DNA from: Agarivorans albus
GTDB lineage: Bacteria > Pseudomonadota > Gammaproteobacteria > Enterobacterales > Celerinatantimonadaceae
Reading direction: 5' to 3'
Length of the DNA stretch: 64,000 nucleotides
Assembly (NCBI RefSeq): GCF_019670105.1
Contig: NZ_AP023032.1
Span: 995,501-1,059,500, forward strand
The position numbers and the translations under genes are program-made. The notes under the pieces are model-generated. The model was not told the origin of the DNA. It saw only the letters and a list, made by a program, of their open reading frames with translations, and did not search any database. Of this stretch, positions 4,479 through 56,002 are shown in pieces (the stretch's first letter is position 1; each line of letters starts with the position of its first letter).

Positions 4479-4500
4479 ATTTTTAGTAATTACTAAAAAT
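4479..4500. promoter_or_regulatory. 22-bp perfect palindrome upstream of the RND operon
   Basis: Positions 4479-4500 form an uninterrupted perfect palindrome centred on GTAATTAC with A/T-rich arms. It lies about 130 bp upstream of the adaptor gene and 240 bp upstream of the small plus-strand gene. A related half (TTTACTAAA) recurs near 4527-4535. Size and symmetry suit a dimeric repressor of the TetR or MarR type. The regulator is not encoded nearby, so this is inference. The rest of the gap 4351-4739 shows no gene. Confidence 0.5.
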
Positions 4501-4742
4501 AAGTAGAGGCTAAATATACACCCATATTTACTAAAGGTAGCCTCAGTAATACCGAGTTTAAGCTTCGGGATTTATCCGCAAGTTTGATGTTTGCTTGATG
4601 CTTCATCGAGTGAGTGAAGACTAAAGCAGCTTGTTAGTGGTTGATTTCTCTATAAAAGCTATTTATGAAATGGATAAAGCACAGCATTGGGCTTGGCTTT
4701 ACGTTATTATCTAGCCAAATTTTAGAGTGCGTAGAGGGCATG

Positions 4743-5000: not shown

Positions 5001-5096
5001 TGATTTAGTGCTTGAAAGCGCTTTTCTATAAAGTGCCCCTATATTTAACAGGGTTTTTTATTAAGCTAGCTTGATAAACAACAGGGAATGTTAAAT

Positions 5097-5921
5097 ATGT
5101 CTGAATCTATCCACTTCTTAGCGCTAGTTGATGAGCTATCAGCGCTTGCACAAGTTGATGCAGTTTTACTGGCGGGCTCAAGAGCTAGCGGCCTTTCTGA
5201 TAGCTATTCTGACTACGATGTATATGTTTATTTAAACGCCCCCTTGGCGGCTGAAGCACGTCAAAAGATAGTGGCAAAGCATTGTCAGTATCTTGAGTTG
5301 AATAATCAGTTTTGGGAAACTGAAGACGACGGTGTATTGCTCGACGGAATAGAGATTGAACTCATCTATCGAGACTTTTCCTTCTTGGAAAATGAGCTGC
5401 ATTACTTAGTGGAGCGCCATCAAGCCAAGGTGGGTTATAGTTCCTGCTTTTGGGCAAACTTGCTCGATTCAAAAATCCTTTACGATGCTAACGGTCAAGC
5501 CAAGCGTTTACAGCAACGTTTTAATGTGGCTTATCCCAGCGCACTGCAACAAGCAATCGTAAATAAAAATGCGCCTTTACTTATGCAGCAAATGCCCGCT
5601 TACTACTTTCAATTAGCCAAGGCCTTAAAGCGCCAAGACCGAGTTAGCTTAAATCACCGTTGTGCGGAGTTTTTAGCTAGCTATTTCGACATTCTGTTTG
5701 CTATTAATGGGCTGCCGCACCCTGGAGAGAAGCGCATGCTTGAGTTCGCTGAACTGCACTGCAATATTTGTCCTGACCAGCTAGCTGAAAACGTAGAACG
5801 TTTGCTGGCTGAGGTGGGGCAAGCAGCAGGCAGTTTATTAGATACAGTGAGTTTGCTGAGCGAAACCTTGCAGCAGGTGGTAACGACTCAAACATCCTTA
5901 AGCTGGCCTACTAAGTCCTAG
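5097..5921 (+). CDS. Nucleotidyltransferase-domain protein
   Basis: Residues near 20-45 carry the nucleotidyltransferase fold signature: a GSRASG motif followed by the SDYDVYVY aspartate pair that binds metal. A later IELIYRDF strand could supply the third acidic residue. This places it with the small NTase/aminoglycoside-adenylyl-type fold, but the rest (mostly helical, about 150-270) matches no specific resistance enzyme I recognise. AGGGA at 5083-5087 abuts an upstream ATG (5088) but is nine bases from ATG 5097, so 5097 (protein MSESIHFL...) is preferred. Substrate unknown. Confidence 0.8.
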   Translation: MSESIHFLALVDELSALAQVDAVLLAGSRASGLSDSYSDYDVYVYLNAPLAAEARQKIVAKHCQYLELNNQFWETEDDGVLLDGIEIELIYRDFSFLENELHYLVERHQAKVGYSSCFWANLLDSKILYDANGQAKRLQQRFNVAYPSALQQAIVNKNAPLLMQQMPAYYFQLAKALKRQDRVSLNHRCAEFLASYFDILFAINGLPHPGEKRMLEFAELHCNICPDQLAENVERLLAEVGQAAGSLLDTVSLLSETLQQVVTTQTSLSWPTKS

Positions 5922-6020
5922 CAGATAAAAGATAAGCTACATTGATCTATCTCTATTGATTTAAATAATATTTAATGTGAAGGTAGCGCTAATCATAGTA
6001 GTAAAAACAAGGATGTATTG

Positions 6021-6983
6021 ATGCTAATAAGCCGTAAAGCCGCAGGTGGTTTACTCGCGCTAACTCTATTCTCAGGCGCTTCTTTTGCAAGCTCCGATCT
6101 AGCCGTTCCCTATGTTGTAGGGGGGGAAGATGCCCCTAAAGGTGCTTATCCGTGGATGGCTCAACTTAAAGCGGGTAGCAGCCACTGTGGTGCTGTGTTA
6201 ATTAACGAGCAATGGCTGTTAAGTGCCGCGCATTGTACTTTCGATCAATATGAAGAAGGGCAGCATACTCAAGCTGAAGATATCATCGCTTTTATTGGCG
6301 AAGATGAATTCAATTATTCTTATGATGACGGTTTGCCGATGGCGGAGGTATGCCAACATCCAGATTACGTTGATTTTGATAACACTGAGGAAGGCAAGGT
6401 TAGTGGAGACTATGACCTAGTGTTGATACGTTTAGCTGACGCTACTTCAATTACGCCAATAACGATTAATCAAAGTGCCATTTTTGACCAATACTCTCCT
6501 GGTTTTGGCCTGCGAGTAATTGGTTACGGCCGAGTAAACAATGATGCTGATAACCCAGAGTATCTTGATGAGCTTCAACAAGCCGATCTCTCTTTAACAT
6601 CGGCCTCAGAATGTAGCCAGTTTTATGGCGCGGAATGGTTAAGCGACCAAATGTTTTGTGCGGATAGTAATATAGCCGATTCATGTTCTGGCGACAGTGG
6701 TGGTCCATTGTTTATTGATGAGGGGACCCAATACAAGCTGGCCGGCATTGTTAGCTGGGGAACACGCAGTTGTGCTAATGCGCCTGGGGTTTACGCAGAT
6801 GTTGGCAAATTGTCAGGCTGGATTAACCAAGTAATCCAAGCCAGCGAAGCAGAGCGAGCAGACCCAAGTTTGTGCTCTCAACTAGCTGCGGTTCCTCGGC
6901 CTAGCTCTGGTGGTGGGGCTGCTGGCGGTCTAGGTTTAATTGCTTTGCTGGTGTTACGCCGCTTTAGAAAAACTAAAAATTAG
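6021..6983 (+). CDS. Secreted trypsin-like serine protease with GlyGly-CTERM anchor
   Basis: S1A-family endopeptidase. A Sec signal peptide (cleavage near SFAS-SDL) precedes the activation-like sequence YVVGGEDAP. The catalytic triad is visible: His71 (SAAHC), Asp132 (DYDLVLIRL) and Ser226 (GDSGGP); Asp220 in the SCSGDSGG context suggests trypsin-like specificity. Six or more cysteines fit disulfides. The last ~25 residues are a Gly-rich linker, a short hydrophobic helix and an RRFRK tail, which is the GlyGly-CTERM sorting signal processed by rhombosortase for type II secretion. AAGGA at 6009-6013 is seven bases before ATG 6021, so this start is preferred to the TTG just upstream. Confidence 0.93.
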   Translation: MLISRKAAGGLLALTLFSGASFASSDLAVPYVVGGEDAPKGAYPWMAQLKAGSSHCGAVLINEQWLLSAAHCTFDQYEEGQHTQAEDIIAFIGEDEFNYSYDDGLPMAEVCQHPDYVDFDNTEEGKVSGDYDLVLIRLADATSITPITINQSAIFDQYSPGFGLRVIGYGRVNNDADNPEYLDELQQADLSLTSASECSQFYGAEWLSDQMFCADSNIADSCSGDSGGPLFIDEGTQYKLAGIVSWGTRSCANAPGVYADVGKLSGWINQVIQASEAERADPSLCSQLAAVPRPSSGGGAAGGLGLIALLVLRRFRKTKN

Positions 6984-7050
6984 ATTTTTCAATTAGTTAA
7001 TTAACGGAACAATTCTTCCGTAAAATTGTTTAAAAAATCCTCATGCATCG

Positions 7051-7085
7051 GCGGGCGTTTTCTGGTAGATTACGCCCGCATTTTT
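7051..7085 (+). terminator. Probable terminator after the protease gene
   Basis: An 8-bp G+C-rich stem (GCGGGCGT 7051-7058 with ACGCCCGC 7072-7079) has a 13-base loop and is followed by ATTTTT. The loop is longer than usual, so efficiency is uncertain. Confidence 0.55.
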
Positions 7086-7104
7086 ATATGCCACTAACAA
7101 GCTG

Positions 7105-7169
7105 TCTCATGGAGTGCTGTTAAACAGTTGAGAACGTCCACCCCAAGGATTGGGCCAGCAATTTGGACG
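7105..7169 (+). promoter_or_regulatory. Structured leader: two nested hairpins before the small membrane protein gene
   Basis: Hairpin 1: TCTCA 7105-7109 pairs with TGAGA 7129-7133, with CTGT/ACAG (7117-7120/7124-7127) inside. Hairpin 2: CGTCCA 7135-7140 pairs with TGGACG 7164-7169, with CCCAA-GGA-TTGGG (7142-7154) inside. They are separated by one base and end 28 bp before ATG 7198. No known riboswitch class is recognised. It could be an RNA control element or chance folding. Confidence 0.4.
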
Positions 7170-7197
7170 AACATTTTTGCTTGTTAATGAGAATTTT

Positions 7198-7461
7198 ATG
7201 CAAAGTATTTTTGCCGATATCGTTGGACTACTTGGTACTGCCTTAGTGGTAGGTTCGTTTTTTCTTTTACAGTTAGAGCGTTTAAACCCCAAGCAACTTG
7301 CCTACAACCTAATGAACTTAAGCGGTGCTATTTTACTGCTCATTAGTTTGTGCATTAATTTTAACCTAGCTAGCTTTGTTATTGAGCTATTCTGGATTGG
7401 TGCATCAGTGGTAGGTATAGTTAAGTACTTCAAACGAGAGCCTGCTGTCGCTCAAGCATAA
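7198..7461 (+). CDS. CBU_0592-type small integral membrane protein
   Basis: An 87-residue protein with three predicted membrane helices (FADIVGLLGTALVVGSFFLL, NLSGAILLLISLCINF, FVIELFWIGASVVGIV) and a short basic/Ala tail. The pattern matches the CBU_0592 family of unknown function; the assignment is from memory of the family. The frame is open from 7150, but ATG 7198 with GAGAA upstream marks the hydrophobic N-terminus and is the likely start. It is a single gene, preceded by a leader that can form two hairpins. Confidence 0.8.
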   Translation: MQSIFADIVGLLGTALVVGSFFLLQLERLNPKQLAYNLMNLSGAILLLISLCINFNLASFVIELFWIGASVVGIVKYFKREPAVAQA

Positions 7462-7590
7462 TTTAAAATGACTTCGCGATAATTTAAGAGCTATCGCCTT
7501 TATTCAATGGTGATAGTTCTTAATAAACGATTGAAACTTTGTTTTTCCCTCCTGTCACTTACTCTGATACTCCCAGTTCAATTCGGCTAA

Positions 7591-8391
7591 CTAAGCGCTG
7601 GCATATAAGCAACGAAAAGTGGCCTCTATGTGATAGCTGCCATCGAGGTTCTCAAATGGCGACAAGGCCTTACGATGCGCTTTGTCTAATGCATGATGGC
7701 TAGTATTTTCAATGGCTTTTGCTGCAACTCCAGATGAGGCTAAGCCGCGCAAGGCTGTTTCTAAATCAGCGTATTGCCAGGGGGACTCAACGTCGAAGAT
7801 GTCGATAGGTTTTAGTCCAGACTTAAGGGCGAATTCACGCAATAAGGTTTTGTTGGATAGGGCAAAAGGCCCCGGAGCGCCTTTGGGAGGTGCTGGTAAC
7901 AACGGCTTTAAGGCTGCCACTAAGGAGGCCGCTTGCATTCCTTCTGGTTCACCCCAAGTCATAATTATTACCTTGGCGCCAGGCTTGGCAACGCGTTTGG
8001 CTTCGCTCAAGGCTGCAACAGGATCCCCCGCATATTGAAATGAGTTAAAGCCGGTAATACAAGAAAAACTGTCATCTCTAAATGGGAGAGTTTCTATATC
8101 AGACACATGAAACGACACGTTTGGAGATCGCTGCTCGGCGATTTCTATTAAGGCTTGTGAAGCATCAACTCCATGCACAGTAGCACCTTGCTCACAGGCC
8201 AAAGCGGCGGCCATGCCAGAGCCACATCCAACGTCCAAGTAGTAGCTGGTCTCGTTGATGGCCAGTTTATCAAATGCTGCTAGATATACCGGGCGACAGG
8301 TTTGCTCTTGAATATTGGCCCAGTCTTGAGATGACAATCCCCATAAGCGCCCATTAGTTTTGCCAGTTGTTGCGTGTTGGTGAGTATTCAT
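7591..8391 (-). CDS. Class I SAM-dependent methyltransferase
   Basis: Methyltransf_11/UbiE-like fold. SAM-binding motif I is YLDVGCGSGMAAAL (about residues 52-65), followed by the acidic motif II (VHGVDAS), motif post-II (VSDIETLPFRDDSF) and the helix ALSEAKRVAKPGAKVIIMTWGE. The C-terminal third should determine the substrate, which cannot be named. The chosen ATG (8391) has GGAG six bases upstream; an ATG five codons earlier (8406) has a weaker AGG. The divergent gap to the MoxR gene contains a near-palindrome at 8417-8430. Confidence 0.88.
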   Translation of the reverse strand: MNTHQHATTGKTNGRLWGLSSQDWANIQEQTCRPVYLAAFDKLAINETSYYLDVGCGSGMAAALACEQGATVHGVDASQALIEIAEQRSPNVSFHVSDIETLPFRDDSFSCITGFNSFQYAGDPVAALSEAKRVAKPGAKVIIMTWGEPEGMQAASLVAALKPLLPAPPKGAPGPFALSNKTLLREFALKSGLKPIDIFDVESPWQYADLETALRGLASSGVAAKAIENTSHHALDKAHRKALSPFENLDGSYHIEATFRCLYASA

Positions 8392-8682
8392 CTCAAACTC
8401 CGCCATTTAACCTGCTTAGACTTTAGTCTAGTACGCTAGTCTTACAGTTAAACAAGGCAATAACGACAGTAGCTTGTGCAGCATTATCTTTACAGTTAAG
8501 GCTTTAGGTGGTTTGGCTGATTATGCCTTAGAGGGAAGTGAATACTGGGCTGTCGGGCATCAATGTTAGGAGAACTCCTCAAAACAAATTTTCGACAAGA
8601 GCGATAAGTTTGACGACTTTGGCTGCACAAATGAGCAAAAGCTTTGTATGCTAGAGCGACTAAAAATAGGGCCTTTACTTAT

Positions 8683-9594
8683 ATGAATCAAATACATCCT
8701 CAATTAGCGCCAATTTGTGATTACCTTGAGCAACAATTGCTTGGCAAACCCAAAGCAGTGCGTTTGGCTTTGAGTTGTTTATTGGCCTCTGGCCATTTGC
8801 TGATTGAAGATCTGCCGGGTGCTGGGAAAACCAGTTTGGCTAAATGGCTTGCTGCTGGTTTTGGTTTAAGTTTTCAGCGAATTCAATTTACTAGCGATTT
8901 ATTGCCTGCTGATATTATCGGTGTGTCGGTATTTGAACCGCCTACTCAGCAGTTTAAGTTTCATCCTGGGCCTATTTTTCACCATCTAGTTTTGGCTGAT
9001 GAGCTTAACCGCGCCAGCCCTCGCACCCAAAGTGCTTTGCTCGAAGCCATGGAAGAGCAACAAGTGAGTACCGACGGTGAGAGTTATCCCTTAAAAGCGC
9101 CGTTCTTTGTTATTGCCACCCAAAACCCGCGCGAGCAGCTTGGCACCTTTGACTTACCCGAGTCTCAGTTAGATCGCTTTGCCATGCGTTTAAGCATTGG
9201 CTTTCCGGATTTAGATTCAGAAATGGCAATGCTTAAACGAGGCAATCAGACCAGCCAATCTTTAGCGGCTCTTTCTGTAGAGCAACTGTTGGAGTTGCAA
9301 CAGCAAGTGAATGCGCTGCATTGCAGTGATGCTTTGTTAGATTATTTATTGCGTTTGGTGCACTGCAGCCGAGTGCTGGAAGGGGCTAGTCCTTTGTCGC
9401 CGCGTTGCAGCTTAACCTTACTTGCTTGCGCTAAGGCGTGGGCATTTGTTCATCATAAGCAGCACGTTTCCCCAGAGGATGTGCAAGCGGTGTTTAGTGC
9501 GGTGAGTGCCCACCGTTTAGGGCGAGGAGATAGCGGTGAAGCCTATGCCAAACAAATATTGGCCGAAGTAGACCCCTATAGTGATTTAACTTAG
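8683..9594 (+). CDS. MoxR-family AAA+ ATPase
   Basis: Chaperone-like AAA+ ATPase thought to act on metallo- or VWA-containing partners. Walker A is GAGKTS (residues 46-51), Walker B LVLADELNRASP, sensor 1 VIATQNP, and arginine finger/sensor 2 lie in SPRCSLTLLACAKAWA. Residues 210-300 form the lid. The frame is open from a TTG at 8644; ATG 8683 gives the usual short N-terminus, although no strong Shine-Dalgarno is seen for either. It is the first gene of a MoxR-DUF58-transglutaminase operon, with two bases to the next ATG. Confidence 0.93.
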   Translation: MNQIHPQLAPICDYLEQQLLGKPKAVRLALSCLLASGHLLIEDLPGAGKTSLAKWLAAGFGLSFQRIQFTSDLLPADIIGVSVFEPPTQQFKFHPGPIFHHLVLADELNRASPRTQSALLEAMEEQQVSTDGESYPLKAPFFVIATQNPREQLGTFDLPESQLDRFAMRLSIGFPDLDSEMAMLKRGNQTSQSLAALSVEQLLELQQQVNALHCSDALLDYLLRLVHCSRVLEGASPLSPRCSLTLLACAKAWAFVHHKQHVSPEDVQAVFSAVSAHRLGRGDSGEAYAKQILAEVDPYSDLT

Positions 9595-9596
9595 GC

Positions 9597-10574
9597 ATGA
9601 AACTCAAATTGCTAAAAGCGTTTAAACAATGGAAGGGCGTGCGCAGCGAGGCCTGGTTAGCTAAACGCGTTCCTAACAGTAGTAGTTTACGTTTAACTCG
9701 AAAAAATCTGTTTATTCTGCCCACTCGCTTTGGTTGGGGTTTTTTAATCGCCTTAGTGGTGATGTTGATGATGGGCAGCAATTATCAAAATAACTTAATT
9801 ATTGCCTTGGGCCTATGGTTGTTGGCGCTTTGGTTAGTGTGCTTGGTGTTATGCCATCAAAACATGTCGGGAAATACCGTAAGTTTATTGCAGCGGCCCG
9901 AAGGGCAATGTGACAAGCCGCTGCGTTTATTACTTAACATAGTTAACAACAAACAGCCCCAAGCCTTAGCTGCAGAAATAAAGAACTGGCCCTGTAAGCA
10001 AGCCTATCAGCAACTCGATGGTCAGTTGGCGTTAGATTTGGAAGTACAGCAACGTGGGCGTCAACTACTGCCTCGGATAAGTCTCTCTAGTATCTTTCCT
10101 CTGGGTTTATTTAGATGTTGGACGGTGGCTGATTTTAATTGTGAGTTGCTGGCTTATCCTGCACCGCTGGCCGGCTTTGCTTGCCCTTCTCAAGAATGGG
10201 TAGAAGCTCATGATGTTGAGCGTGCGGCTAGTGATAGCCAGTTGCAAAGTGAATTTTCGGGCCTTAAAGCTTACCGTAGCGGCGAGCGAAAAAGCTTATT
10301 GGCTTGGAAGCAGTTTGCTGCGGGGCGAGGCTTACAGACTAAGGCATTTACTGGCAACCCTAGTATTGATTTACACCTTAGTGATCGCAGGCACAGCGGT
10401 TTGAATTATGAACAAACTCTCTCGGTATTGGCTTTTTGGTTGCGCCAGTTGGCGCAGCAACAACAGAGTTTTAGCTTACAAGTTGGTGCAAAGCAACTGG
10501 CCAGTGGCAGTGGTCAACAGCAACTAAAAGCGGGTTTAAGATTACTTGCAGAGGCGCCGAGCAGTGATGAATAG
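9597..10574 (+). CDS. DUF58 domain membrane protein
   Basis: Two hydrophobic helices (about residues 42-85) are followed by a soluble domain. The characteristic DUF58 block is present near residues 205-245: DSQLQSEFSGLKAYRSGE, then KSLLAWKQFAAGRGLQTKAF. DUF58 proteins are the usual partner of MoxR ATPases; their biochemical role is unknown. It starts two bases after the MoxR stop and overlaps the next gene by 8 bp, indicating translational coupling. Confidence 0.92.
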   Translation: MKLKLLKAFKQWKGVRSEAWLAKRVPNSSSLRLTRKNLFILPTRFGWGFLIALVVMLMMGSNYQNNLIIALGLWLLALWLVCLVLCHQNMSGNTVSLLQRPEGQCDKPLRLLLNIVNNKQPQALAAEIKNWPCKQAYQQLDGQLALDLEVQQRGRQLLPRISLSSIFPLGLFRCWTVADFNCELLAYPAPLAGFACPSQEWVEAHDVERAASDSQLQSEFSGLKAYRSGERKSLLAWKQFAAGRGLQTKAFTGNPSIDLHLSDRRHSGLNYEQTLSVLAFWLRQLAQQQQSFSLQVGAKQLASGSGQQQLKAGLRLLAEAPSSDE

Positions 10575-12456
10575 TCTCAACAGTTCGCATATTCGCATGT
10601 CGTTGTTGTGTTATTCGGCAACAGCCTTGTTATTGCTACAACAAGTGCCATGGCTGCTAGTGCTTGTAGGCTTGGCTGCGGGGTGGTGGCGCTTGCGGGT
10701 GATGCAAGGTTTAGCCACTTTACCTAAACCGCGCTGGGTAAAGCTAAGCTTAGTGCTACTTATTGCACTGGTGCTGTGGTTAGCGCGCTCCTTTGAGCTG
10801 TTTGATAAGCTGGTGAGCCTGGTAATGCTTGGCTATAGCTTAAAGTATATTGAGCTGCATAAGCGGCGTGATGTGGAAATGTTTAGCCTTACGGGCTTAT
10901 TTTTGGTGGCATTTTCACTGGTTTTTTCTAGCCAACCTTTAGCTGCATTATTGGCAGCGCTAGTGGCATTTTTACACTTATTACTGTTGCTTAGCTTAGA
11001 TGTGAAAATAAGCTTTAACTGGGCTAAGCGGTTGGGTTTATGGTTATTGGCTATTGCTCCCCTAGCTATCGCGCTATTTATTGTTGCTCCACGCTTAGCG
11101 CCTTTGTGGAAAATGCCGACACCGAGCAGCGCGCAAACTGGCTTGTCTGATGTGGTTCGCCCTGGTGATATCAGCCAATTGATTCGCTCAGATAAGTTAG
11201 TTTTTCGGGCGGAGTTTAGTCGCGCGCCAGAACCCGATGAGCTGTATTGGCGAGCCATGGTTTTAGACGAATTTGATGGTGAGCAATGGACCCGCAGCCA
11301 GATAGCCCAACAGAAACAAGCTCCCGATAGCTCAAGTGCTATTAATCAGTATCAACTCTTGTTAGAACCGGCCAGTCAAGCGTGGTTAGCCACCTTAAAC
11401 CCTAGCCAAGTTCGTGGTGGTGGCGCCAACTACGTGGCCGATGGTAGCTGGCAACGTGAAGGCGAGAGCTTTCCACGACAAATTCTAAATTTTAGTCAAT
11501 TAGAGCCGCCTACCAGCAGCGCAGTTCCACCTGCTTATTTGCACTTTCTCACCCGTTTACCGCAAAACATTACACCCAAAGTTAGCGAGCTTAGTGAGCA
11601 CTTGGGGTCCGGCTTAAGCCCTCGTGCTCCTGATTACCCAAAGCAAGTGATGGCACGCGTGCAGCAGTGGTTCTTAAGTCAGCAGTTTAGTTATACCCTC
11701 AGTCCGCCAGCTTACCCAGGGCTGTTAGGCGTCGAGCGTTTTTTATTAGATCAGCAAAGCGGTTTTTGTGTTCATTATGCGCAAAGTGTGGTGATACTGG
11801 CGCGTTTACAGGGGATCCCTGCTCGCATGGTTACCGGCTTTTTAGGTGGAGAGTGGGAACAACAAGACAGCTTACTAGCTGTGCGTAACTACGATGCTCA
11901 TGCTTGGATGGAGTATTGGGATGGCCAAGGCTGGGTGCGGCTTGATCCCACTGCCTGGATCGCCCCTGACCGGGTGGAAAACAATCTACAGCAAAGCCAA
12001 GCGACCGCTCAGCAGTGGCAAAGCATTAGCGGTTGGGGCCAAAAGATTTGGTACACCCAAGGCTTTAACCAACTGCGCTTATGGCTTGCCCAGGCCGATT
12101 ATTGGTGGGCTAAGTGGGTACTTAACTTTGACCACAAACGTCAGTTAAGTCTGTTTTCTCAATTGCTGGCTTGGCTGCCGGGCAGCTCCTTATTAATGTT
12201 AACCGCCGGGATGATTTTGCTGGGTTTACTTGCCACTGTTTTACTTATGGCTAAACCTTGGCAATGGCGTCTGCCTAATAAACAAGTTGTCTCGCTAAAA
12301 TGGCAGTGTTGGCTATTGGCAAGGCGGGGAGTTGTTCGGGCTAAAGGGGAAAGCTTTAGTCACTTCTTAAAGCGTGTAGAGCAGCAAGCTCCGCAGCGAG
12401 CATTCGCGTTAGAACACGCTATTAATAACTATAACCAAAAGCGCTATCAGGCTTAG
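10567..12456 (+). CDS. Membrane-anchored transglutaminase-like protein (TgpA/DUF3488 type)
   Basis: About 630 residues: five or six N-terminal membrane helices (DUF3488, residues ~10-175), a periplasmic transglutaminase-like core and a C-terminal helix (about 545-565) with a cytoplasmic DUF4129-like tail. The Cys-His-Asp triad is readable: Cys401 (GFCVHYAQS), His445 (YDAHAWMEYW) and Asp460 (RLDPTAW). A close relative in Pseudomonas (TgpA) is a periplasmic transglutaminase important for viability. ATG 10567 overlaps the DUF58 stop. Substrate proteins are unknown. Confidence 0.92.
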   Translation: MNSLNSSHIRMSLLCYSATALLLLQQVPWLLVLVGLAAGWWRLRVMQGLATLPKPRWVKLSLVLLIALVLWLARSFELFDKLVSLVMLGYSLKYIELHKRRDVEMFSLTGLFLVAFSLVFSSQPLAALLAALVAFLHLLLLLSLDVKISFNWAKRLGLWLLAIAPLAIALFIVAPRLAPLWKMPTPSSAQTGLSDVVRPGDISQLIRSDKLVFRAEFSRAPEPDELYWRAMVLDEFDGEQWTRSQIAQQKQAPDSSSAINQYQLLLEPASQAWLATLNPSQVRGGGANYVADGSWQREGESFPRQILNFSQLEPPTSSAVPPAYLHFLTRLPQNITPKVSELSEHLGSGLSPRAPDYPKQVMARVQQWFLSQQFSYTLSPPAYPGLLGVERFLLDQQSGFCVHYAQSVVILARLQGIPARMVTGFLGGEWEQQDSLLAVRNYDAHAWMEYWDGQGWVRLDPTAWIAPDRVENNLQQSQATAQQWQSISGWGQKIWYTQGFNQLRLWLAQADYWWAKWVLNFDHKRQLSLFSQLLAWLPGSSLLMLTAGMILLGLLATVLLMAKPWQWRLPNKQVVSLKWQCWLLARRGVVRAKGESFSHFLKRVEQQAPQRAFALEHAINNYNQKRYQA

Positions 12457-12543
12457 GCTCCAGAGCTATTAGTCGTGGTGGCTCGCATGAGGTTTTGATT
12501 CCTTTCTATCACTCAGTTTTTCGCTAATCATTTGTGTTTATTC

Positions 12544-12813
12544 ACTAGGGTATGTTGATCTTTGCTGATGGTTTTTGCAGCAATTTATTCGCCATTTAGG
12601 CAAGGCAGTGAGTGTGAAGTTAAGTGGGCTTAATAATCACTCGCTAACGCTGAATAAATGGCTAATAAATGCTGCCCGAAGGGTTCAGGTAAGCGAACTT
12701 TACTCTTTGTTGAGCACTTCTCGCTTAGCCCACTAGGCTTCAAAGTGCTCGCCGCGATTAAGGTCCGCTTATCTCGAACAAAATTTCAACACCAAAGATC
12801 AGCAGACCCTAGT
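12544..12813. repeat. MITE-like interspersed repeat, copy A
   Basis: A 270-bp element bounded by ACTAGGG (12544-12550) and CCCTAGT (12807-12813), inside which the imperfect terminal inverted repeat AGGGTCTGTTGATCTTT is recognisable at both ends. It is over 90% identical by eye to copy C at 53201-53468. The interior includes a conserved GCCCGAAGGGTTC block. No open frame or transposase is present. It occupies most of the 490-bp gap between the transglutaminase and the YgjV-like gene; nothing else is seen there. Confidence 0.85.
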
Positions 12814-12946
12814 TCTTTTCAACAAATACAGTGAGTTTCCTTAATTAAGGCTAATTTATTTGTCAATTTGTGTGAGCTAACCAGATTATTAGTATCGCTG
12901 CTCGTAAAGTGAGCGACACTAAAAGCTCAGGCAAAAGGAGATGATA

Positions 12947-13564
12947 ATGGATTGGATTGAGTGGTTTGGTTACTTGGCGTCGGTGGTAGTGGCCATTTCG
13001 TTAACCATGAGTTCGATAGTAAAGCTGCGCTGGTTAAACATGGTGGGGGCAGCGTTGTTTTCTACTTACGGGTTTATTATTGGTGCTATGCCGGTGGCTT
13101 TGTTAAACCTTTTTATTGTATTTGCTAACGTTTATTACTTGCAGGGTATTTACCGCAGCAAGGACCAATTTAAACTAGTGGCAGTGGAAGCTAGCAGCCC
13201 ATTGCTTGGTTTTTGGATTGAGCATTATCAATCTGATATCGAGAAGTATTTTCCGCAATTTTCGACTGATAGTTTACTTGGGCAGGGCTGTTACATACTC
13301 ATGCGCAATAGTGAGCCTGCAGGCATATTGGTGGGCAAACAGCAATTGCATGAGTTTGAAATAAAGCTAGACTACGTTTTCCCCGCTTATCGCGACTTTA
13401 AAACCGGAGATTACCTTTACCATAGCTCTGGTTTTTTTGAGGCCTTAGGTGTTAAGCAGCTAGTTAGCTATACGGCGGTAGCGAGTCACCAGCAGTATTT
13501 AGTTAAAATGGGCTTCAAAGCTTCAGCGGATAACGCTGCTCTATATCAATATAAACTTAGTTAG
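12947..13564 (+). CDS. YgjV-like membrane domain fused to a GNAT-like domain
   Basis: Residues 1-70 form three membrane helices resembling the YgjV/Imp-YgjV family (GYLASVVVAISLTMSS, LNMVGAALFSTYGFIIG, VALLNLFIVFANVYYL). Residues 75-205 are soluble and resemble a GNAT acetyltransferase: a GILVG strand and a C-terminal FEALGVKQLVSYTAVASHQ plus YLVKMGFKA segment. No function is established. AAGGAG at 12935-12940 abuts ATG 12941 but is six bases from ATG 12947, so the latter is chosen. The TAG stop lies within the first bases of repeat copy B. Confidence 0.72.
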   Translation: MDWIEWFGYLASVVVAISLTMSSIVKLRWLNMVGAALFSTYGFIIGAMPVALLNLFIVFANVYYLQGIYRSKDQFKLVAVEASSPLLGFWIEHYQSDIEKYFPQFSTDSLLGQGCYILMRNSEPAGILVGKQQLHEFEIKLDYVFPAYRDFKTGDYLYHSSGFFEALGVKQLVSYTAVASHQQYLVKMGFKASADNAALYQYKLS

Positions 13565-34189: not shown

Positions 34190-35080
34190 CTAACATGTGT
34201 TTTTAAACCAATTGCCAACCACGTCGATAATGTCTTGTTGCCACGGTTTTTTAAGGGCACTTGAGGGGTAGAGTAAAACGTAACCAAGCCTTCCAGATTG
34301 CAATGCAAAATCAAGATCTAAAGGAACTAGTTCTGCGTGACGTTTTTCAACCATATTGGTGGGGAGTAGGGCAAATCCCTCTAACTCAAGAAGCTTAACT
34401 AGGGTCATCGCTTCACTCACCGAACTTGTTTGTGATGAAATAAGGGTTTGTTGGCCAAACATGCTTTGTTCAAGATCTTCCAACACAAATTGTCGATGAA
34501 GCTGTAGCTCTGGTAACGATACCTGCTGCTTGTTAGCAAGCGGAGAGCGTTTATGAGCGTAATAGTTAAACTCTGGATAACCCAGGTTGATGAAGCTTAC
34601 TCCTGTATCTGGATGCAGAGCCCCTTGGTTTAGCGTGATGCAAAAATCAGCTTGTCCTTCTACCAATAGCGCCAATGCCATTTTTCGGGATCGTGACAGC
34701 CAATTGATTACCGTCATCGGGTGTTGAGAGCGAATTGCATGGTCCATTTGCTGTATTGCCGTGCTCGAAATGGAGGAGTCATGACAAATGGATATTTGTG
34801 TTTTATCGCCTAAATGTAGGCTATCGGTGGCAGATTCGAGGGCATTCATTTGATAAATGATCAGCCTAGCGGCGCGCACTAAGCTGTCCCCTTGCTCTGT
34901 CAACTTGGGGGCTTTTCCTTCTCTCTCAAAGAGAGCTATTCCCCAATCTATTTCAAGATCTGCTACTTGTCGATGAAGGGTAGAGCGGTCCTTATTTAGT
35001 TTTCTTGCTGCTTTACTAAATGACCCTTCTTCAGCAACCGCAACAAATGCACTTAGTTGATCAAATGATGCTCTCGGCAC
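34190..35080 (-). CDS. LysR-family transcriptional regulator
   Basis: 296 residues. N-terminal winged helix-turn-helix (QLSAFVAVAEEGSFSKAARKLNKDRSTLHRQ split over residues 8-38) and a C-terminal periplasmic-binding-like effector domain. The start is GTG 35080 with GGAG six bases upstream. It is divergent from the acylase-like gene, with a T-N11-A dyad between them, so it probably regulates that gene and itself. The effector is unknown. Confidence 0.92.
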   Translation of the reverse strand: MPRASFDQLSAFVAVAEEGSFSKAARKLNKDRSTLHRQVADLEIDWGIALFEREGKAPKLTEQGDSLVRAARLIIYQMNALESATDSLHLGDKTQISICHDSSISSTAIQQMDHAIRSQHPMTVINWLSRSRKMALALLVEGQADFCITLNQGALHPDTGVSFINLGYPEFNYYAHKRSPLANKQQVSLPELQLHRQFVLEDLEQSMFGQQTLISSQTSSVSEAMTLVKLLELEGFALLPTNMVEKRHAELVPLDLDFALQSGRLGYVLLYPSSALKKPWQQDIIDVVGNWFKNTC

Positions 35081-35110
35081 ACTTAGCTCCTCATCGATAT
35101 TTTACTTATG

Positions 35111-35125
35111 TTGCATATTATACAA
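35111..35125. promoter_or_regulatory. Putative LysR-type operator
   Basis: TTGCATATTATACAA is a T-N11-A element with imperfect dyad symmetry (flanked by G and C to GTTG...CAAC). It is in the divergent gap between the LysR gene and the acylase gene. Confidence 0.5.
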
Positions 35126-35198
35126 CGTAGGTGATTTTATTTGTTGTGAGTGAGTGGTTAAAGTCTTTGCAATATCGGAATGATTAAAAGGCGACAAA

Positions 35199-36260
35199 AT
35201 GATAAGTAGCAAAAGCAAATTAATGGTAGCCCTGTTGGCTGCGTCGGCAGTTACTGCAATAGCAACTACGGCCGAGGCTTGTTCTCGAATTATTTGGGAG
35301 ACCGAAAACCACGGGGTATTTGTGAGCCGTACGATGGATTGGATGGAAGAGAATCAACCGACCATAGAAATTCGTCATTCAGGGCAGACTTACAAGGGGC
35401 ATAGCAGTGAGCTAGGTAAAACTTGGACGTCTAAGTACGCTTCAATTGGCATGACACTATATGGTATCGGAATTGTTGATGGGTTTAATGAAGTTGGCTT
35501 CTCTGCTAATGGCTTGTTCTTAGACGAAGAATCGGCAGGCGATTTAGAGGGCGAATTAGCGCAGGTTTCAAATGCGGTGTTTGTGGCTTATTTACTGGAT
35601 AACTTTGCGACTGTTGAAGAAGCTTTAGAAAATATTAATGAGATTGAGATTCAACAATTCTCGCACAATGGTCATTCGATGCGTGGTCATTATTCTATTC
35701 AGGATAAAAATGGTGATTCTGCAATTCTTGAATTTGTTGATGAGGGCTGGAAAATTTATCACGGCAAGCAGTATGACGTAATGACTAATAGCCCTACATT
35801 CCAGCAGCATCTTACCAACTGGAGTGAAGCACAACCAGCCTCTGAAGATGTGATAGATGGCGAATACCCAATACCAGGCAATATTAACTCTGCGCAGCGT
35901 TTTGTTTGGAACAAGTATATGAAATCTCAGCTAAAAGAGCCTACGAGTTACACAAACGGCTTGGCCAAGCTAGATAGCGTTACTTATAAAATTCCATTAG
36001 ATGCTGCTAATCGCCCAGACGCTGCAGGTGTAATGCGTGGGTATGCAACTATCTACTCTGTGGGCTACAACCTTGATCAAAAAGTGATGCAAATTCGCTA
36101 TCAGTTTGGTGACGCTTACACCCATTTCTTTGTTGATTTTGACAAACTGAATGACGGTAAAAATTACCACCTTGCCGCAGATAGCCCAGATTTATTTGGC
36201 GATGTGACGGGACAGTTTATCCAAAATAACGGTGTTATGGCGCACTACGCTACTCATTAA
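35199..36260 (+). CDS. Linear amide C-N hydrolase (penicillin V acylase/choloylglycine hydrolase family)
   Basis: Ntn-hydrolase. A Sec signal ends at AEA, exposing Cys28 as the N-terminal nucleophile (CSRIIWE). Other family features are SRTMDW (Arg/Asp), NEVGFSANGLFL, the NSPTFQQHL oxyanion Asn region and YATIYSVGYNLDQK. Periplasmic location follows from the signal. Gram-negative relatives cleave penicillin V and acyl-homoserine lactones, so quorum-signal degradation is one possible role; bile-salt hydrolysis is less likely in a marine organism. Preceded by AAGG. Divergent from LysR. Confidence 0.92.
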   Translation: MISSKSKLMVALLAASAVTAIATTAEACSRIIWETENHGVFVSRTMDWMEENQPTIEIRHSGQTYKGHSSELGKTWTSKYASIGMTLYGIGIVDGFNEVGFSANGLFLDEESAGDLEGELAQVSNAVFVAYLLDNFATVEEALENINEIEIQQFSHNGHSMRGHYSIQDKNGDSAILEFVDEGWKIYHGKQYDVMTNSPTFQQHLTNWSEAQPASEDVIDGEYPIPGNINSAQRFVWNKYMKSQLKEPTSYTNGLAKLDSVTYKIPLDAANRPDAAGVMRGYATIYSVGYNLDQKVMQIRYQFGDAYTHFFVDFDKLNDGKNYHLAADSPDLFGDVTGQFIQNNGVMAHYATH

Positions 36261-36356
36261 TCCAGTCCCCTATTTGATTAGATACTGAGAAAAAGTTTAA
36301 CGACTTGTTTCGGGGTTTCTATGACAGCAATTCTCTAGAAGTTCGCAAACCTATAC

Positions 36357-36376
36357 AGGAGGCGTTTTCGCCTCCT
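36357..36376 (+). terminator. Hairpin after the acylase gene (weak terminator)
   Basis: AGGAGGCG (36357-36364) and CGCCTCCT (36369-36376) form a perfect 8-bp stem with a TTTT loop. The following bases (TCCTTGG) are not a proper T run, so termination would be partial. It lies 16 bases before the barrel-protein ATG. Confidence 0.45.
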
Positions 36377-36391
36377 TCCTTGGATAGTAAA

Positions 36392-37168
36392 ATGACGTCA
36401 AAATACTTGGTACTGTTTGTATCACTCTCACTTTTTTCTTTAATTTCTTTCTCTGAAACCATCGATAAAGAGATTGATCCTTCAGACCTCACAAGGGTTT
36501 ACACTCAAGCCGCACTCATGGTGAGTGGTAATAGTAATGTTATGCCTGTCGGCATGATTTCCGGTGGATACAATAATGGTCATCAATTCGCCCTGCTTGC
36601 CGAAGCAAAGTTTGGCAAGAGCGGAGAGAATGCTGACAATGAGTTTGGCTTAGAGTACGGAACTTCTCGTTTTCAGTATTTTCAGGTTGCTGATACCGGC
36701 TCAAGCTTTATGCCAAGAGCGGGTCTCTCTGCTGACTATATCAATGTGCGCTCTTCCAGTATCAAGTCTGACTTACTTGCATTGGGTGGGGTTGCAGCAA
36801 TAAATCAGCAGTTTACACCTGGGTTTATGTTATTCCCGATGGCAGGTTATGTGTTTGGGAACATGGAAATTAACGGCATTAAAGAAGATGTGGATGGCGT
36901 TAACCTATCTATCGCGGCATCGATTCCAATTGGTGGTAATGGAGCATTTATGATGATTTGGCCTGAATACAGAAAGATGAGCGGGAACAGCATTAAAACT
37001 GAGAATGTATCAACAAAATTGATCCTTAACTCACCTCTAACCGATGACCGAAAATGGTGGATAAATACCCGTATTGAATTAGACAATTCACAGTTGAAGC
37101 TTGGCGAAGATAGCTTAGTAAAGCAGCGAAATTCTGATGTATATATGGGGATTAGATATTTTTTCTAG
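36392..37168 (+). CDS. Predicted outer-membrane beta-barrel protein
   Basis: A 258-residue protein: Sec signal (LVLFVSLSLFSLISFSE), then alternating amphipathic strands and a terminal YMGIRYFF ending in Phe, as needed for BAM insertion. It resembles porin-like barrels of unknown function; no specific family is recognised. ATG 36392 starts the signal peptide; the 29 upstream in-frame codons cross a hairpin and are not coding. It lies downstream of the acylase gene and may be co-regulated with it. Confidence 0.75.
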   Translation: MTSKYLVLFVSLSLFSLISFSETIDKEIDPSDLTRVYTQAALMVSGNSNVMPVGMISGGYNNGHQFALLAEAKFGKSGENADNEFGLEYGTSRFQYFQVADTGSSFMPRAGLSADYINVRSSSIKSDLLALGGVAAINQQFTPGFMLFPMAGYVFGNMEINGIKEDVDGVNLSIAASIPIGGNGAFMMIWPEYRKMSGNSIKTENVSTKLILNSPLTDDRKWWINTRIELDNSQLKLGEDSLVKQRNSDVYMGIRYFF

Positions 37169-37195
37169 TTTAGCCAAATGAAATAGGTTAAAGGT

Positions 37196-37474
37196 TTAGC
37201 TGCGTCGCAGTCTAACCACCTTCATTATCTCAAACTCAAAGCCGGCGCGCAGTTGGTGGCTGGGGTAGTAGCTAAGATTAACCCGTGCACCTTTTAAGTC
37301 TTGGTAGCGTTGCTTACGTTTGTAAACAAAGGGGACGTCGTAGCCTGCAATCATTAATGTATGTAAGATCCAGTCGCCTTCTTCGCGTTGCACGTGGGAG
37401 GCAACTTTCACATCTTCAGAATGGATTAGCGCTGGGCGCTTTTTGAGTAAGGTTTCTGGATCTTTTTTAAGCAT
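37196..37474 (-). CDS. Uncharacterised small basic protein, ppnP operon
   Basis: A 92-residue protein rich in Lys/Arg. The middle (GDWILHTLMIAGYDVPFVYKR) and end (FEFEIMKVVRLRR) are beta-like. No signal peptide and no recognised family. It starts six bases after the ppnP stop, so the two are one operon and perhaps functionally linked. Confidence 0.75.
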   Translation of the reverse strand: MLKKDPETLLKKRPALIHSEDVKVASHVQREEGDWILHTLMIAGYDVPFVYKRKQRYQDLKGARVNLSYYPSHQLRAGFEFEIMKVVRLRRS

Positions 37475-38863: not shown

Positions 38864-39346
38864 GTGATTTCAAAATCTTGTTTGGTGCCAGAGATGCAAA
38901 CTATTGCCGATAGTTTTTGGCATTATTCGGAGCAGGTTTATTCAAGACCTGAAGTGAAGAAACTGTGTTTATGGTTACAAGAGCAACACACCCGTAATGT
39001 AAACCTACTGCTTTGGTTGAGCTTTTGCCAACAGCAACGCTGGACAGTTAATTTAGAGCTATTGCTCAGCCAAATTAATAATAGCGAACAGAAAATTACT
39101 GAGTTCCGCCGTTACCGGAAAAAAATGAAGCCCTACCTGAGTGAAACTCAATACCATTTATTACTAAAACATGAACTAAAGCTTGAACGTCGCCAGCAGC
39201 AATTGTTAGTACTCAGCCAGCAGCGCCACCCTGGTCGACAAACTGCTGACGTAGCCCTGACTAACTATCTTAATCAGGCTGATGCTTCCGCTCAGTACTT
39301 AGCAACGATGAACTTAGCCATACTGGACGGCAAGTTGCATAGTTAA
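38864..39346 (+). CDS. TIGR02444 (DUF2390) family protein
   Basis: A 160-residue helical protein. The N-terminal FWHYSEQVYSRPEVKKLCL block followed by LQEQHTRNVNLLLWLSFCQQ is the family signature; function unknown. The start is GTG 38864 with TAGG seven bases upstream; ATG 38897 is an alternative. The last 17 codons (QYLATMNLAILDGKLHS) are repeated four more times in tandem immediately downstream. Confidence 0.82.
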   Translation: MISKSCLVPEMQTIADSFWHYSEQVYSRPEVKKLCLWLQEQHTRNVNLLLWLSFCQQQRWTVNLELLLSQINNSEQKITEFRRYRKKMKPYLSETQYHLLLKHELKLERRQQQLLVLSQQRHPGRQTADVALTNYLNQADASAQYLATMNLAILDGKLHS

Positions 39347-39799
39347 ACTAACTAGCGTGCGTAGATTGAAGCTGCAGCCCAGTACTTAGCTGCTATATAT
39401 TTAGTCGCGATGAACTTAGCCATTCTGGATGGCAAGCTGCATAGTTAAACTAACTAGGGTGCTTAGATTGAAGCTGCAACTCAGTACTTAGCTGCTATAT
39501 ATTTAGTCGCAATGAACTTAGCCATACTGGACGGCAAGCTGCATAGCTAAGACTAATTAGCGTAACTAGATTGAAGCTTCCGCCCAGTACTTAGCTGCCA
39601 TATATTTAGTCGCAATGAACTTAGCCATTCTGGACGGAAAGCTGCATAGCTAATATTCACTAGTGGACTTAGATTTAGGCTTCAGCCCAGTACTTAGCTG
39701 CTATATATTTAGTCGCAATGAACTTAGCCATTCTGGATGGCAAGCTGCATAGTTAAGACTAATTGGCGTAACTATGCAGCTTCAGCCCAGTACTTAGCT
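39293..39799 (+). repeat. Tandem array of the TIGR02444 gene 3' end
   Basis: Units start at CAGTACTTAGC: 39293 (within the gene), 39380, 39482, 39585, 39688 and a truncated one at 39788. Unit lengths are 87, 102, 103, 103 and 100 bp. Units 2-5 carry 15 extra in-frame bases compared with the gene and encode QYLAAIYLVA then MNLAILDGKLHS and a stop. Differences among these four in that segment are all synonymous (GCG/GCA, GCT/GCC, ATT/ATA, GAT/GAC, GGC/GGA, AGT/AGC); against the gene a CTG/TTG Leu change is also synonymous, and the other difference is at the 15-base indel. The ~35-bp linkers vary more. This accounts for the whole gap 39347-39793. Confidence 0.92.
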
Positions 39800-41587
39800 C
39801 TGATGTTGGTACAAGGTTTTGTATAAGCCAGTTTGTTCAATTAGCTGCTGATGTTCACCTACTTGGCTAATGGCGCCATCATCTAATACATAAATTAGAT
39901 CGGCTTGTTTAATTGCACTTAAACGATGAGCAATAATTAGTGTGGTTCGCTGGTCTAAAAAGCCTTGCAGGTTACGATGCAGTTTGGCTTCGGTATCTGT
40001 ATCTAAGGCCGAGGTGGCTTCATCTAATACCACTACTTGCGGTTTAGCCAAGATCATTCGGGCTATCGCTAGACGCTGTTTTTGCCCTCCCGAAAGTCTT
40101 ACGCCACTTCTGCCCACTAATGTGTCTAGGGTGTCGGGTAGCTTTTCAACAGTTGTTTGTAGCTCGGCAATAGCCAAGGCTTGCCACAGCTCATCATCAC
40201 TGTGTTGGCGACCCATGTTGAGGTTTTCTCTAACCGTAGTATTAAACAGTATCGGTTGTTGTAATACTGTGGAGATATTACTACGAATGGTGGAATAACC
40301 GACTTTTTCAATTGGGGCTTTATCTAACAAGATTTGGCCACTGTCTTTTTGGTAAAGCCCTAGCAGCAGGTTCACCAAGGTAGACTTACCGCCGCCACTT
40401 ACCGACACCACCGCAACTTTTTTACCTGCTGGCAAGGTTAGGCTAATGTCTTTTAGTACTGGGGATTCTGCTGAGTAACTAAAGTTGACGTTCTTGAATT
40501 CGATATCAAAGTTCTGTTGTTTGGCAAAGGGGTCTACTTCGCAAGGGTAGTGGGGCTCTTGTTTTAGCTCAAATAGTTGATTTAAGCGCGCTAACGCAGC
40601 GTTAGCGCTAAAGTAGCTGTATTGAATGCTCAATATTTCTTGCACTGGTCCCATCATAAACCACAAGTAGCCAAATACTGCGAAGATTTGCCCTACGGTT
40701 AAATCAGAAAAGACCACCATTAACATGGCTATTGCGCGAAACACCTCAAAGCCAACAAGGAAGATGGTGAAGCTAAGGCGGTTTACAGCATCGGTCTTCC
40801 AATGCGAGGCAATGGCGTGGTCTTTTAACTCGCCAGCGGCGCTAATTACTCGCGAAAAGTAATGGCCTTCTCGTTGTGTTGCGCGTAGTTGCTGAATGCT
40901 GTCTAAGGTTTCAATTAAGGCAAGCTGAAAGGCTTCAAAGGCTGCGTTTTCTTTTTTCTTTAGCTCTTTTACATGGCTGCCGAAAGAGCGGGAGAAATAG
41001 ATAACAGCTGGGTTGAGCAGCAAAATAATTAAGCCTAGTTGCCAGTCAATCCACAGCAAAATAACTGCCGTACCAACAATGGTGAGCAAGGCTACTAGAA
41101 ACTTGGACAGGCTTTCGCTAATAAATTTATCTAGGGTTTCTACATCGGTGATGCAACGGGCGCTTATGCCGCCAGAGCCTTGAGTTTCATATTCACGTAG
41201 TTCAACCTTGGGCAAGTGTTCGACTAGGCGCTGACGGATCAAAAAGCTAATTTGCTTACCAATAAAGGTGAATTGCCTAGCCTGCAAAACACCAATCACT
41301 AGTGATGATAAACGTAAACAAACCACCACCAATAAAATAGTAAGAATATAACCAGTGGCGGTATGCCAGCCTTCGGGAAGTACTTGTTGAAGTACAGATA
41401 TGGCTTTGCCTGGTTTTTCTAACAATACCTCGTCAACCAACAAAGGCATCATAAGTGGGATGGGTACACTCACTAAGGTAGCCAAAATGGCAATAAGGTG
41501 AGCGTAAACCAAGGGCTTTTTATAGTGGAAAATTTGTTGGCGAATGGTTGCCCAAGTAAAGGCAGCCGAGGAGACGTTTGAATGCAT
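39794..41587 (-). CDS. ABC transporter, fused permease/ATPase (exporter type)
   Basis: A 597-residue half-transporter with six N-terminal membrane helices (residues ~20-320) and a C-terminal ATPase. Motifs: Walker A VSVSGGGKST, signature VRLSGGQKQRLAIAR, Walker B VVVLDEATSALD, H-loop IIAHRLSAI. The first Walker A glycine (GxxGxGKST) is replaced by Ser here. It belongs to the MsbA-like multidrug/lipid exporter group; the substrate is unknown. It converges with the TIGR02444 gene, and its TAA stop lies inside the last truncated unit of the tandem array. Confidence 0.92.
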   Translation of the reverse strand: MHSNVSSAAFTWATIRQQIFHYKKPLVYAHLIAILATLVSVPIPLMMPLLVDEVLLEKPGKAISVLQQVLPEGWHTATGYILTILLVVVCLRLSSLVIGVLQARQFTFIGKQISFLIRQRLVEHLPKVELREYETQGSGGISARCITDVETLDKFISESLSKFLVALLTIVGTAVILLWIDWQLGLIILLLNPAVIYFSRSFGSHVKELKKKENAAFEAFQLALIETLDSIQQLRATQREGHYFSRVISAAGELKDHAIASHWKTDAVNRLSFTIFLVGFEVFRAIAMLMVVFSDLTVGQIFAVFGYLWFMMGPVQEILSIQYSYFSANAALARLNQLFELKQEPHYPCEVDPFAKQQNFDIEFKNVNFSYSAESPVLKDISLTLPAGKKVAVVSVSGGGKSTLVNLLLGLYQKDSGQILLDKAPIEKVGYSTIRSNISTVLQQPILFNTTVRENLNMGRQHSDDELWQALAIAELQTTVEKLPDTLDTLVGRSGVRLSGGQKQRLAIARMILAKPQVVVLDEATSALDTDTEAKLHRNLQGFLDQRTTLIIAHRLSAIKQADLIYVLDDGAISQVGEHQQLIEQTGLYKTLYQHQS

Positions 41588-55093: not shown

Positions 55094-55204
55094 GTTGATT
55101 AATTTAACAATGTTATAAGCCAAAATGCTCTTTAATCGCTTTGAAGTAGCGACGACTTACCGGCTAATTGCTAACCGTGCGCCACTTATAGTAAACAGCA
55201 CCGC
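55061..55204 (-). pseudogene. Duplicated 3' end of btsR (fragment)
   Basis: The segment 55061-55204 repeats 55207-55343, with a period of 146 bp. On the minus strand it still encodes PVSRRYFKAIKEHFGL and a stop, like the true btsR end, but an 8-bp insertion (CTAATTGC on the plus strand, near 55172-55179) breaks the frame just upstream. It has no start and is a non-functional partial duplicate. With the boxes it fills most of the 288-bp gap before the carrier. Confidence 0.88.
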
Positions 55205-55258: not shown

Positions 55259-56002
55259 TTATAAGCCAAAATGCTCTTTGATTGCTTTGAAGTAGCGACG
55301 ACTTACCGGTAACTGCGCACCACTTTTAGTGAACAACACCGCACCGCCATTATCTTCTAAAGAGATTTCGGAAATGGCTTCCACGTTAACCAAGTGTTGG
55401 CGATGGCAACGTAACAAAGGGGATTTGTCTTCAAGTACTTTTAGCGTTAGCTGGGTATGGTAGGTGCCATTTTCGGTGGCAACATGCACACCGCTTATAT
55501 CGCTTGAAGCATGCTCGATATCTTCTAAGCGGATCAGTTTTACTCGTTGTTGGTAATAACAGGGTATTAATCTAAGTTGTTGCTCTTTGAGCATGGTTTG
55601 GTATGAGTGATTAACTGCCGCATCGGCTTCGGTTTGCTTGATGGAGGGCAAGCGCTCTTTTAGGCGTTTAATCGACTTACACAAACGTTCCGAGTCAATC
55701 GGTTTGAGCAAGTAATCCACGGCATTTTGTTCGAAGGCATCCAGAGCAAATTGATCGTAAGCGGTCACAAATACAATCGCTGGCGCATTGTCACTGTCAA
55801 TCATATTCGCCAGTTCTAAACCGCTAATTTGTGGCATTTCTATGTCTAAAAACAATACCTCGGCTTGCAGTTGCTTAAGGTGCTTTAAACACTCTATGGC
55901 GTTGCCAAATTGCGCGACGACTTCAATTTCAGGGTAGCTTTGCAGCATCTCCTGAAGCTCTTCTCTGGCTAAGGGTTCATCGTCGACAATGATTGCTCTC
56001 AT
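55259..56002 (-). CDS. btsR: LytTR-type response regulator BtsR (YehT-like)
   Basis: 247 residues. REC domain (1-~120) with phospho-acceptor Asp in VLFLDIEMPQISGLEL and Lys in YLLKPID; LytTR DNA-binding domain (~145-247) with SPLLRCHRQHLVNVEAISEI and PVSRRYFKAI. It aligns along its whole length with E. coli BtsR. Its ATG overlaps the btsS stop by 4 bp. It should activate the downstream carrier gene through ACCACTTA-type repeats. Confidence 0.88.
   Translation of the reverse strand: MRAIIVDDEPLAREELQEMLQSYPEIEVVAQFGNAIECLKHLKQLQAEVLFLDIEMPQISGLELANMIDSDNAPAIVFVTAYDQFALDAFEQNAVDYLLKPIDSERLCKSIKRLKERLPSIKQTEADAAVNHSYQTMLKEQQLRLIPCYYQQRVKLIRLEDIEHASSDISGVHVATENGTYHTQLTLKVLEDKSPLLRCHRQHLVNVEAISEISLEDNGGAVLFTKSGAQLPVSRRYFKAIKEHFGL

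Follow-up and report, generated by a model that had tools for sequence, protein, structure and literature searches.

The rtT repeat behind tyrT-tyrV of Escherichia coli K-12 is the nearest known arrangement to the one described here. In the 501 bases searched at rtT/tpr, two direct copies of 178 nt (96%) follow the tRNA genes, and a piece starting in the tRNA 3' end is found at three sites, including the tyrV end itself (35 nt, 66–100% to the reference). The pilS loci of Neisseria and the vls locus of Borrelia hold partial, promoterless copies beside an expressed gene, with which they exchange sequence, and the amino-acid differences among them bring about variation in a surface protein.

Two recombination routes that duplicate or join DNA have been described in bacteria. 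In the natural transformation of pneumococcus, a donor piece is reported to pair alternatively with repeats and to yield tandem duplications by unequal crossing-over (PMC3784515). In homology-facilitated illegitimate recombination, incoming DNA is reported to be joined at one end by homology and at the other illegitimately (PMC3240628).

The DNA analyzed here, the window, is a stretch of 64,000 nucleotides (G000:C1:995501–1059500) of the 4.79-Mb genome of Agarivorans albus (G000), and window coordinates are used for the focal locus. Its features are as follows.

38864..39346, plus strand: DUF2390/TIGR02444 gene, 160 aa, GTG start, with unit 1 as its final 54 bases (NCBIfam TIGR02444, 49.8 bits, cut-off 48.3; PF09523, 66 bits, cut-off 25).
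39293..39346, plus strand: unit 1, the expressed 3' end, without the 15-bp insertion (sequence comparison).
39347..39379, plus strand: first "linker", a decayed copy of the gene's codons upstream of CAGTAC (alignment; the G001 counterpart is like the gene codons at 38/46 bases).
39380..39448, plus strand: unit 2, a silent copy with the 15-bp insertion, placed at 39392–39406 (alignment).
39482..39550, plus strand: unit 3, a silent copy and a mosaic, with ATA and GAC in common with the gene tail and AGC in common with unit 4.
39585..39653, plus strand: unit 4, a silent copy (alignment).
39688..39756, plus strand: unit 5, a silent copy whose last 36 bases are those of unit 2, with an in-frame TAG upstream.
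39742..39782, no strand assigned: inverted repeat with perfect 14-bp arms across the junction of units 5 and 6.
39788..39799, plus strand: unit 6, truncated, including the stop codon of the convergent gene.
39794..41587, minus strand: convergent ABC exporter gene (permease and ATPase; best model MsbA, 331.6 bits, under its cut-off of 602).

The first-pass annotation had placed four copies and a truncated sixth unit behind the gene, and both TRF and the positions of CAGTAC confirm this. TRF reports a single tandem array at 39308–39799 (period 103, 4.8 copies, score 705), and CAGTAC starts at 39293 in the gene and at 39380, 39482, 39585, 39688, and 39788 (truncated) behind it. The array in G000 thus comprises four full copies and one truncated copy 3' of the gene and reaches the ABC exporter stop at 39794. 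The 15-bp in-frame insertion that the annotation saw in units 2–5 and not in the gene copy was found as described, and it is a degenerate tandem duplication of the adjacent bases, identical at 10/15 positions in G000 and 9/15 in the sister species, G003. The period of 103 is accounted for by this insertion together with roughly 88 bases from the 3' end of the gene itself, and the linker in G001 can be read as the gene codons for LTNYLNQAEA; therefore, linker and tail are both gene sequence, and it is the head of the unit (the linker) that has decayed and not the tail. The inverted repeat at 39742–39782 has perfect arms, unlike the other unit junctions, and template switching may have corrected a quasipalindrome here.

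From CAG to the stop (22 codons plus the stop), all six variable sites among units 2–5 are third-position and synonymous (P = 1.2e-4 to 1.6e-3 under neutral change, kappa 1–8); four of them lie in the exchangeable tail and two where the gene has no clear counterpart. The annotation's claim that every difference among these units from CAGTAC to the stop is synonymous holds. The two codons directly upstream of CAG carry two non-synonymous and two synonymous changes. When the segment is widened to start at GCT, eight of ten changes are synonymous (P = 2.6e-4 to 3.9e-3), and just before GCT, TAG replaces GAA in unit 5. The border chosen at CAG flatters the synonymous pattern. Columns are variable at 11/24 positions in the 24 bases before CAG versus 6/69 in the segment (Fisher P = 1.9e-4), in line with the remark that the linkers differ more, although the linkers, taken then as non-coding, are decayed copies of the gene's coding sequence. 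The reading frame and the stop codon are intact in all four full units of G000.

Seven Agarivorans genomes (G000–G006) were compared, and the family search covered 12 genomes. The DUF2390/TIGR02444 gene is present in all seven. The array occurs in G000, G003, G001, and G004 and is decayed in the last two, while in G005, G002, and G006 there is no array and the stops of the two convergent genes, read by eye, abut or overlap. The G003 array consists of five units and a remnant, 84–85 bp apart; among its units there are a one-base gap, one synonymous change, and four non-synonymous ones, of which one creates a stop. The result that the first-pass annotation had named as refuting its reading, a neutral rate of non-synonymous change, is thus seen in the sister species and not in G000.

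The 15-bp insertion is carried by the units of G000 and G003 and is recognizable by eye in the decayed units of G001 and G004, but is found in none of the seven gene copies, which indicates that gene and units split before the species did. A gene with the 22-residue C-terminus was not found in the 12 family genomes; the full 22 residues occur only in the arrays, and among the matches listed from these genomes, gene copies match 18–19 of the 22 residues at 67–79%. The annotation had also proposed a pool of replacement 3' ends kept by gene conversion. A maintained pool with the 22-residue C-terminus is not supported by these distributions or by the decay of the array in two of the four species, whereas exchange between gene and copies, the other part of the proposal, is indicated by shared alleles that are specific to a genome.

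In the last 36 bases, aligned by hand, gene and unit differ at 0–2 positions in G003 (four of the five units compared) and at 2–4 in G000, while the two genes differ from each other at seven. Since the tails resemble the gene of their own genome although the split of gene and units predates the species, concerted evolution is suggested. Between the G000 and G003 units, the insertion segment differs by three non-synonymous and two synonymous changes; as a stretch that the gene lacks, it may serve as an internal control for concerted evolution of the tail. At the ABC1-kinase locus described below, the G001 gene and copy, compared by eye, share synonymous alleles unlike those common to the G000 gene and copies.

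The focal gene also lies in a mosaic region. Identity between G000 and G003 is 91–99% at 37.2–38.6 kb and 95–96% at 39.8–42.4 kb, versus 73–83% at 38.6–39.3 kb; against G001, the identity of G000 is 96–97% at 38.6–39.1 kb, 91% at 39.0–39.3 kb, and 88–90% at 39.8–41.2 kb. One of the two sisters, G000 or G003, appears to have received its gene from another lineage; the mosaic is directly visible, and either sister may have been the recipient. The right-hand break lies between about 39.1 and 39.8 kb, within the tail or the array. Beyond 42.4 kb, G000–G003 identity drops to 78–96%, and 34.4–37.2 kb is without a match, so mosaicism is general in the region. For the stretch at about 34400–37200, whose neighboring parts are >90% identical to G003, the compared flanks of G003, G001, and G004 yield hardly any match; it holds ORFs of 353 aa (35199–36260) and 287 aa (36305–37168) and is likely a strain-specific insert.

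Copies of 3' ends are not confined to the focal gene. The last 150 bases of 2009 crude ORFs (at least 80 aa) in 2.4 Mb of G000 were compared with each ORF's own next 1000 bases, a scan that replaced a smaller, preliminary one of 1342 ORFs in 1.664 Mb. Seven ORFs gave a match of at least 34 bits, of which two were dropped and five kept, namely the focal gene and the following four.

244460–245401 of G000: LysR gene with copies (3'-end scan).
Window 55259–56002, minus strand: LytTR response regulator gene (3'-end scan).
Window 55113..55204, minus strand: silent copy of the LytTR response regulator 3' end, the second case within the window.
963608–964837 of G000: ABC1-kinase gene with two copies (3'-end scan).
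1183962–1184453 of G000: Chalcone_3 gene (3'-end scan).

Regulator, kinase-like, chalcone-isomerase-like, and DUF2390 families are represented among the five proteins. In ten null pairings, no match reached 32 bits for copies within 700 bases. The given window itself accounts for two of the five cases, so the rate should not be taken as unbiased. Four of the five loci face a convergent gene, versus 600 of 1916 ends (ORFs of at least 100 aa; P = 0.036), and the ABC1 unit, read by eye, includes the end of the convergent gene too, which implies that the junction itself was duplicated. A tblastn list of 13 ORFs comprised the five cases, the ORF at 1418352, and seven that were left out (35–52% identity, 393–1000 bases downstream).

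Among the relatives, LysR copies are found in G000, G001, and G004; LytTR copies in G000 and G001; ABC1 copies in G000, G003, G001, and G004; and Chalcone_3 copies in G000, G003, and G001. G005 and G002 have no copies at any of the five loci, nor does G006 at four loci (its ABC1 gene was not found). At the LysR locus, the identity of G000 to G001 is 99% through the copy and falls to 78% at the copy end. Clear mosaic breaks coincide with copies at two of the five loci, and the other three are without a comparably clear break.

Several further observations were made. At LysR copy 2 (L127, G001), the identity of G000 to G001 is 98.8%, compared with 93.3% over the last 150 bases of the genes, so that conservation is higher in the silent copy than in the coding end. 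Behind the LytTR gene, G003 (L194) carries unrelated sequence from about 30 bases past the stop, the reverse strand of which reads by eye like a REP-associated (Y1) transposase. Of the two dropped ORFs, 1418352–1419086 has its match in an adjacent, similar gene, and 265994–266326 (110 aa) lies in a stretch that by eye resembles an interspersed repeat. A repeated intergenic motif around the inverted repeat AAAGAAAAGT, recognized by eye at L051 5828–6380, is likely an interspersed repeat family. At L096 1264–4631, a giant ORF (61–13542) holds about 10.6 copies of a 318-bp repeat with 73% matches.

Over the five loci, gene–copy pN/pS is 0.17 in G000, 0.26 in G001, 0.34 in G003, and 0.40 in G004, figures that are rough, as overlapping pieces of the focal array were counted separately and some copies are shared between genomes by descent; the gene–gene baseline between the four species is 0.05. 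The corresponding synonymous fractions are 0.64, 0.52, 0.45, and 0.43. In simulations at arbitrary rates, silent copies arising in situ, with or without conversion, gave gene–copy fractions of 0.28–0.44, and import of diverged functional ends gave 0.38–0.57. A local neutral history (at high kappa) is compatible, or nearly so, with the fractions of G003 and G004, whereas G001 lies above it and G000 well above, so that import or exchange with other lineages is favored for G000. With one count per locus and copy, the G000 pool holds 40.5 synonymous versus 19.5 non-synonymous changes of 60 (0.675), the focal entry (7 to 0) being taken from the favorable segment of the first-pass annotation. This value exceeds the import simulation maximum of 0.57, and the size of the G000 excess is not fully explained. 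Copy states were found in another species' gene at 147 of 290 sites, which are not independent, versus 124.8 expected, a weak result only slightly above random.

Taken together, the copies are probably silent and represent what remains of functional 3' ends after recombination, some of which would have been between species and with diverged alleles; no working element is required. As the comparison shows, the array began as a silent tandem duplication of the last ~88 bases of the gene, older than the split of the four Agarivorans species, and the two stops at this convergent junction originally abutted or overlapped. One silent copy would then have gained the 15-bp internal duplication, after which the copy number changed and, as the sharing of alleles within a genome suggests, unequal crossing-over or gene conversion passed sequence between the copy tails and the expressed gene. 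In G000 or in its sister G003, recombination with a different lineage has probably replaced the gene, one of the breaks lying in the tail or the array. The copies would thus be largely remnants of ends that were functional, here or in the donor, while they diverged, which may account for the synonymous excess. Nothing in these data calls for a function of the copies as such. In G000, these findings lend support to the first option of the first-pass annotation, in which the units come from real, selected 3' ends through recombination. The uneven excess across genomes and the plainly neutral look of the G003 focal array are points against this explanation.

Part of that evidence would also fit a plain tandem duplication in situ followed by neutral decay, whether or not the gene has converted its copies; the six of six synonymous sites would then be due to luck and a favorable segment. 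The focal array offers few sites, its G003 counterpart has one synonymous against four non-synonymous changes, including the stop, along with the one-base gap, the arrays of G001 and G004 are decayed, and the all-locus fractions of G003 and G004 agree or nearly agree with the local simulations. However, the P value stays low even for the wider segment, the excess in G000 recurs at the other four loci together (33.5/53 synonymous), and simulated local copies reach an among-copy synonymous fraction of only 0.23–0.30. Such a history is therefore unlikely, although it retains some weight.

It is distinctly improbable that the array acts as an RNA or DNA element between convergent genes, such as a hairpin terminator, a transcript stabilizer, or a spacer, with the third-position freedom being coincidental. 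The excess of convergent neighbors at the five loci would suit such a role, and the fold of the minus-strand RNA from the G000 array surpasses that of shuffled sequences (z −3.42, 0/100); column-permuted tiles, a null without dinucleotide preservation, give z −4.91 for the minus and −2.57 for the plus strand (0/60 each). Against dinucleotide shuffles, however, the plus strand of G000 has z 0.43, and the G003 array has z −0.76 and 0.33 with no fold common to both sisters. There is also no terminator-like site within the array, no Rfam match at gathering score, and no further copy in the genome. A conserved RNA was not adopted as the explanation, as the minus-strand fold is good in G000 and not in G003.

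Maintenance of the copies by selection as spare 3' ends, which recombination could swap for a damaged gene end, is more doubtful still. The intact frame and stop in all four full G000 units and the apparent exchange between gene and copies would be expected of such a store, but the heads decay, the whole array decays in two of the four species, the G003 units carry a stop and missense changes, and the insertion is carried by no gene in the genomes searched. Second-order selection of this kind is, in general, weak.

A short translated peptide from each unit, for which the synonymous pattern and intact stop codon in G000 might argue, is highly implausible and was rejected, as the annotation had anticipated in ranking it lower: the only in-frame start is an internal ATG (12 aa), replaced by CTG or CTT in G003, stop codons in frame lie upstream, the sister array has one nonsense and three missense changes versus one silent, and the arrays of G001 and G004 are decayed. 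A REP/BIME or other dispersed repeat was likewise rejected, since matches outside the locus in the G000 genome span at most 27 bases (best 34.6 bits).

The reading as recombination remnants may extend beyond this gene. It is conceivable, though doubtful at present, that recombination between species of the genus repeatedly leaves displaced gene ends behind, as an incoming allele replaces the resident one and pushes the old 3' end downstream beside a convergent neighbor; the focal array, and likewise the LysR, LytTR, ABC1, and Chalcone_3 copies, would then be a serial record of earlier alleles. ComEC/Rec2 scores above the cut-off in G000, but the family does so in five of 14 control genomes too, and its presence says little about competence.

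Non-coding copies that resemble the outcome of protein-level selection can mislead gene finders and searches for small proteins, and here such mimicry has probably arisen because the copies exchange sequence with a selected gene end or descend from one. Should the displacement of 3' ends prove systematic, the displaced ends would be traces of past allele replacement in bacteria, and the question of why convergent junctions collect them would become testable. A literature search, with most subscription journals outside its reach, found no such report for Agarivorans. The multi-locus pattern deserves a genus-wide survey.

Compared with the known systems, the array is a real, somewhat unusual recombination trace of a known general kind, with a multi-locus pattern. 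It does not resemble a diversity-generating retroelement, whose defining substitutions, at adenines and amino-acid-changing, are missing; the variable sites here are third-position, synonymous, and untied to adenine. Homology-facilitated illegitimate recombination could leave displaced gene ends, and transformation-linked unequal crossing-over would be a plausible route for the array. In the pneumococcal report, however, the duplications span ~100–900 kb versus 0.1–0.2 kb for the gene ends here (PMC3784515). Like pilS and vls, the Agarivorans copies are partial, lie beside an expressed gene, and appear to exchange sequence with it. In contrast to pilS and vls, the differences among the G000 copies are mostly silent, as in the six of six synonymous sites, and gene–copy pN/pS is 0.17–0.40 in the four genomes. 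With rtT, the locus shares direct tandem repeats behind a gene that hold the 3' end of that gene. There, however, the gene is a tRNA gene and the repeats come with the annotated ncRNA rttR and the small gene tpr, whereas in Agarivorans the gene is protein-coding, the repeats look silent, and several unrelated genes are affected.
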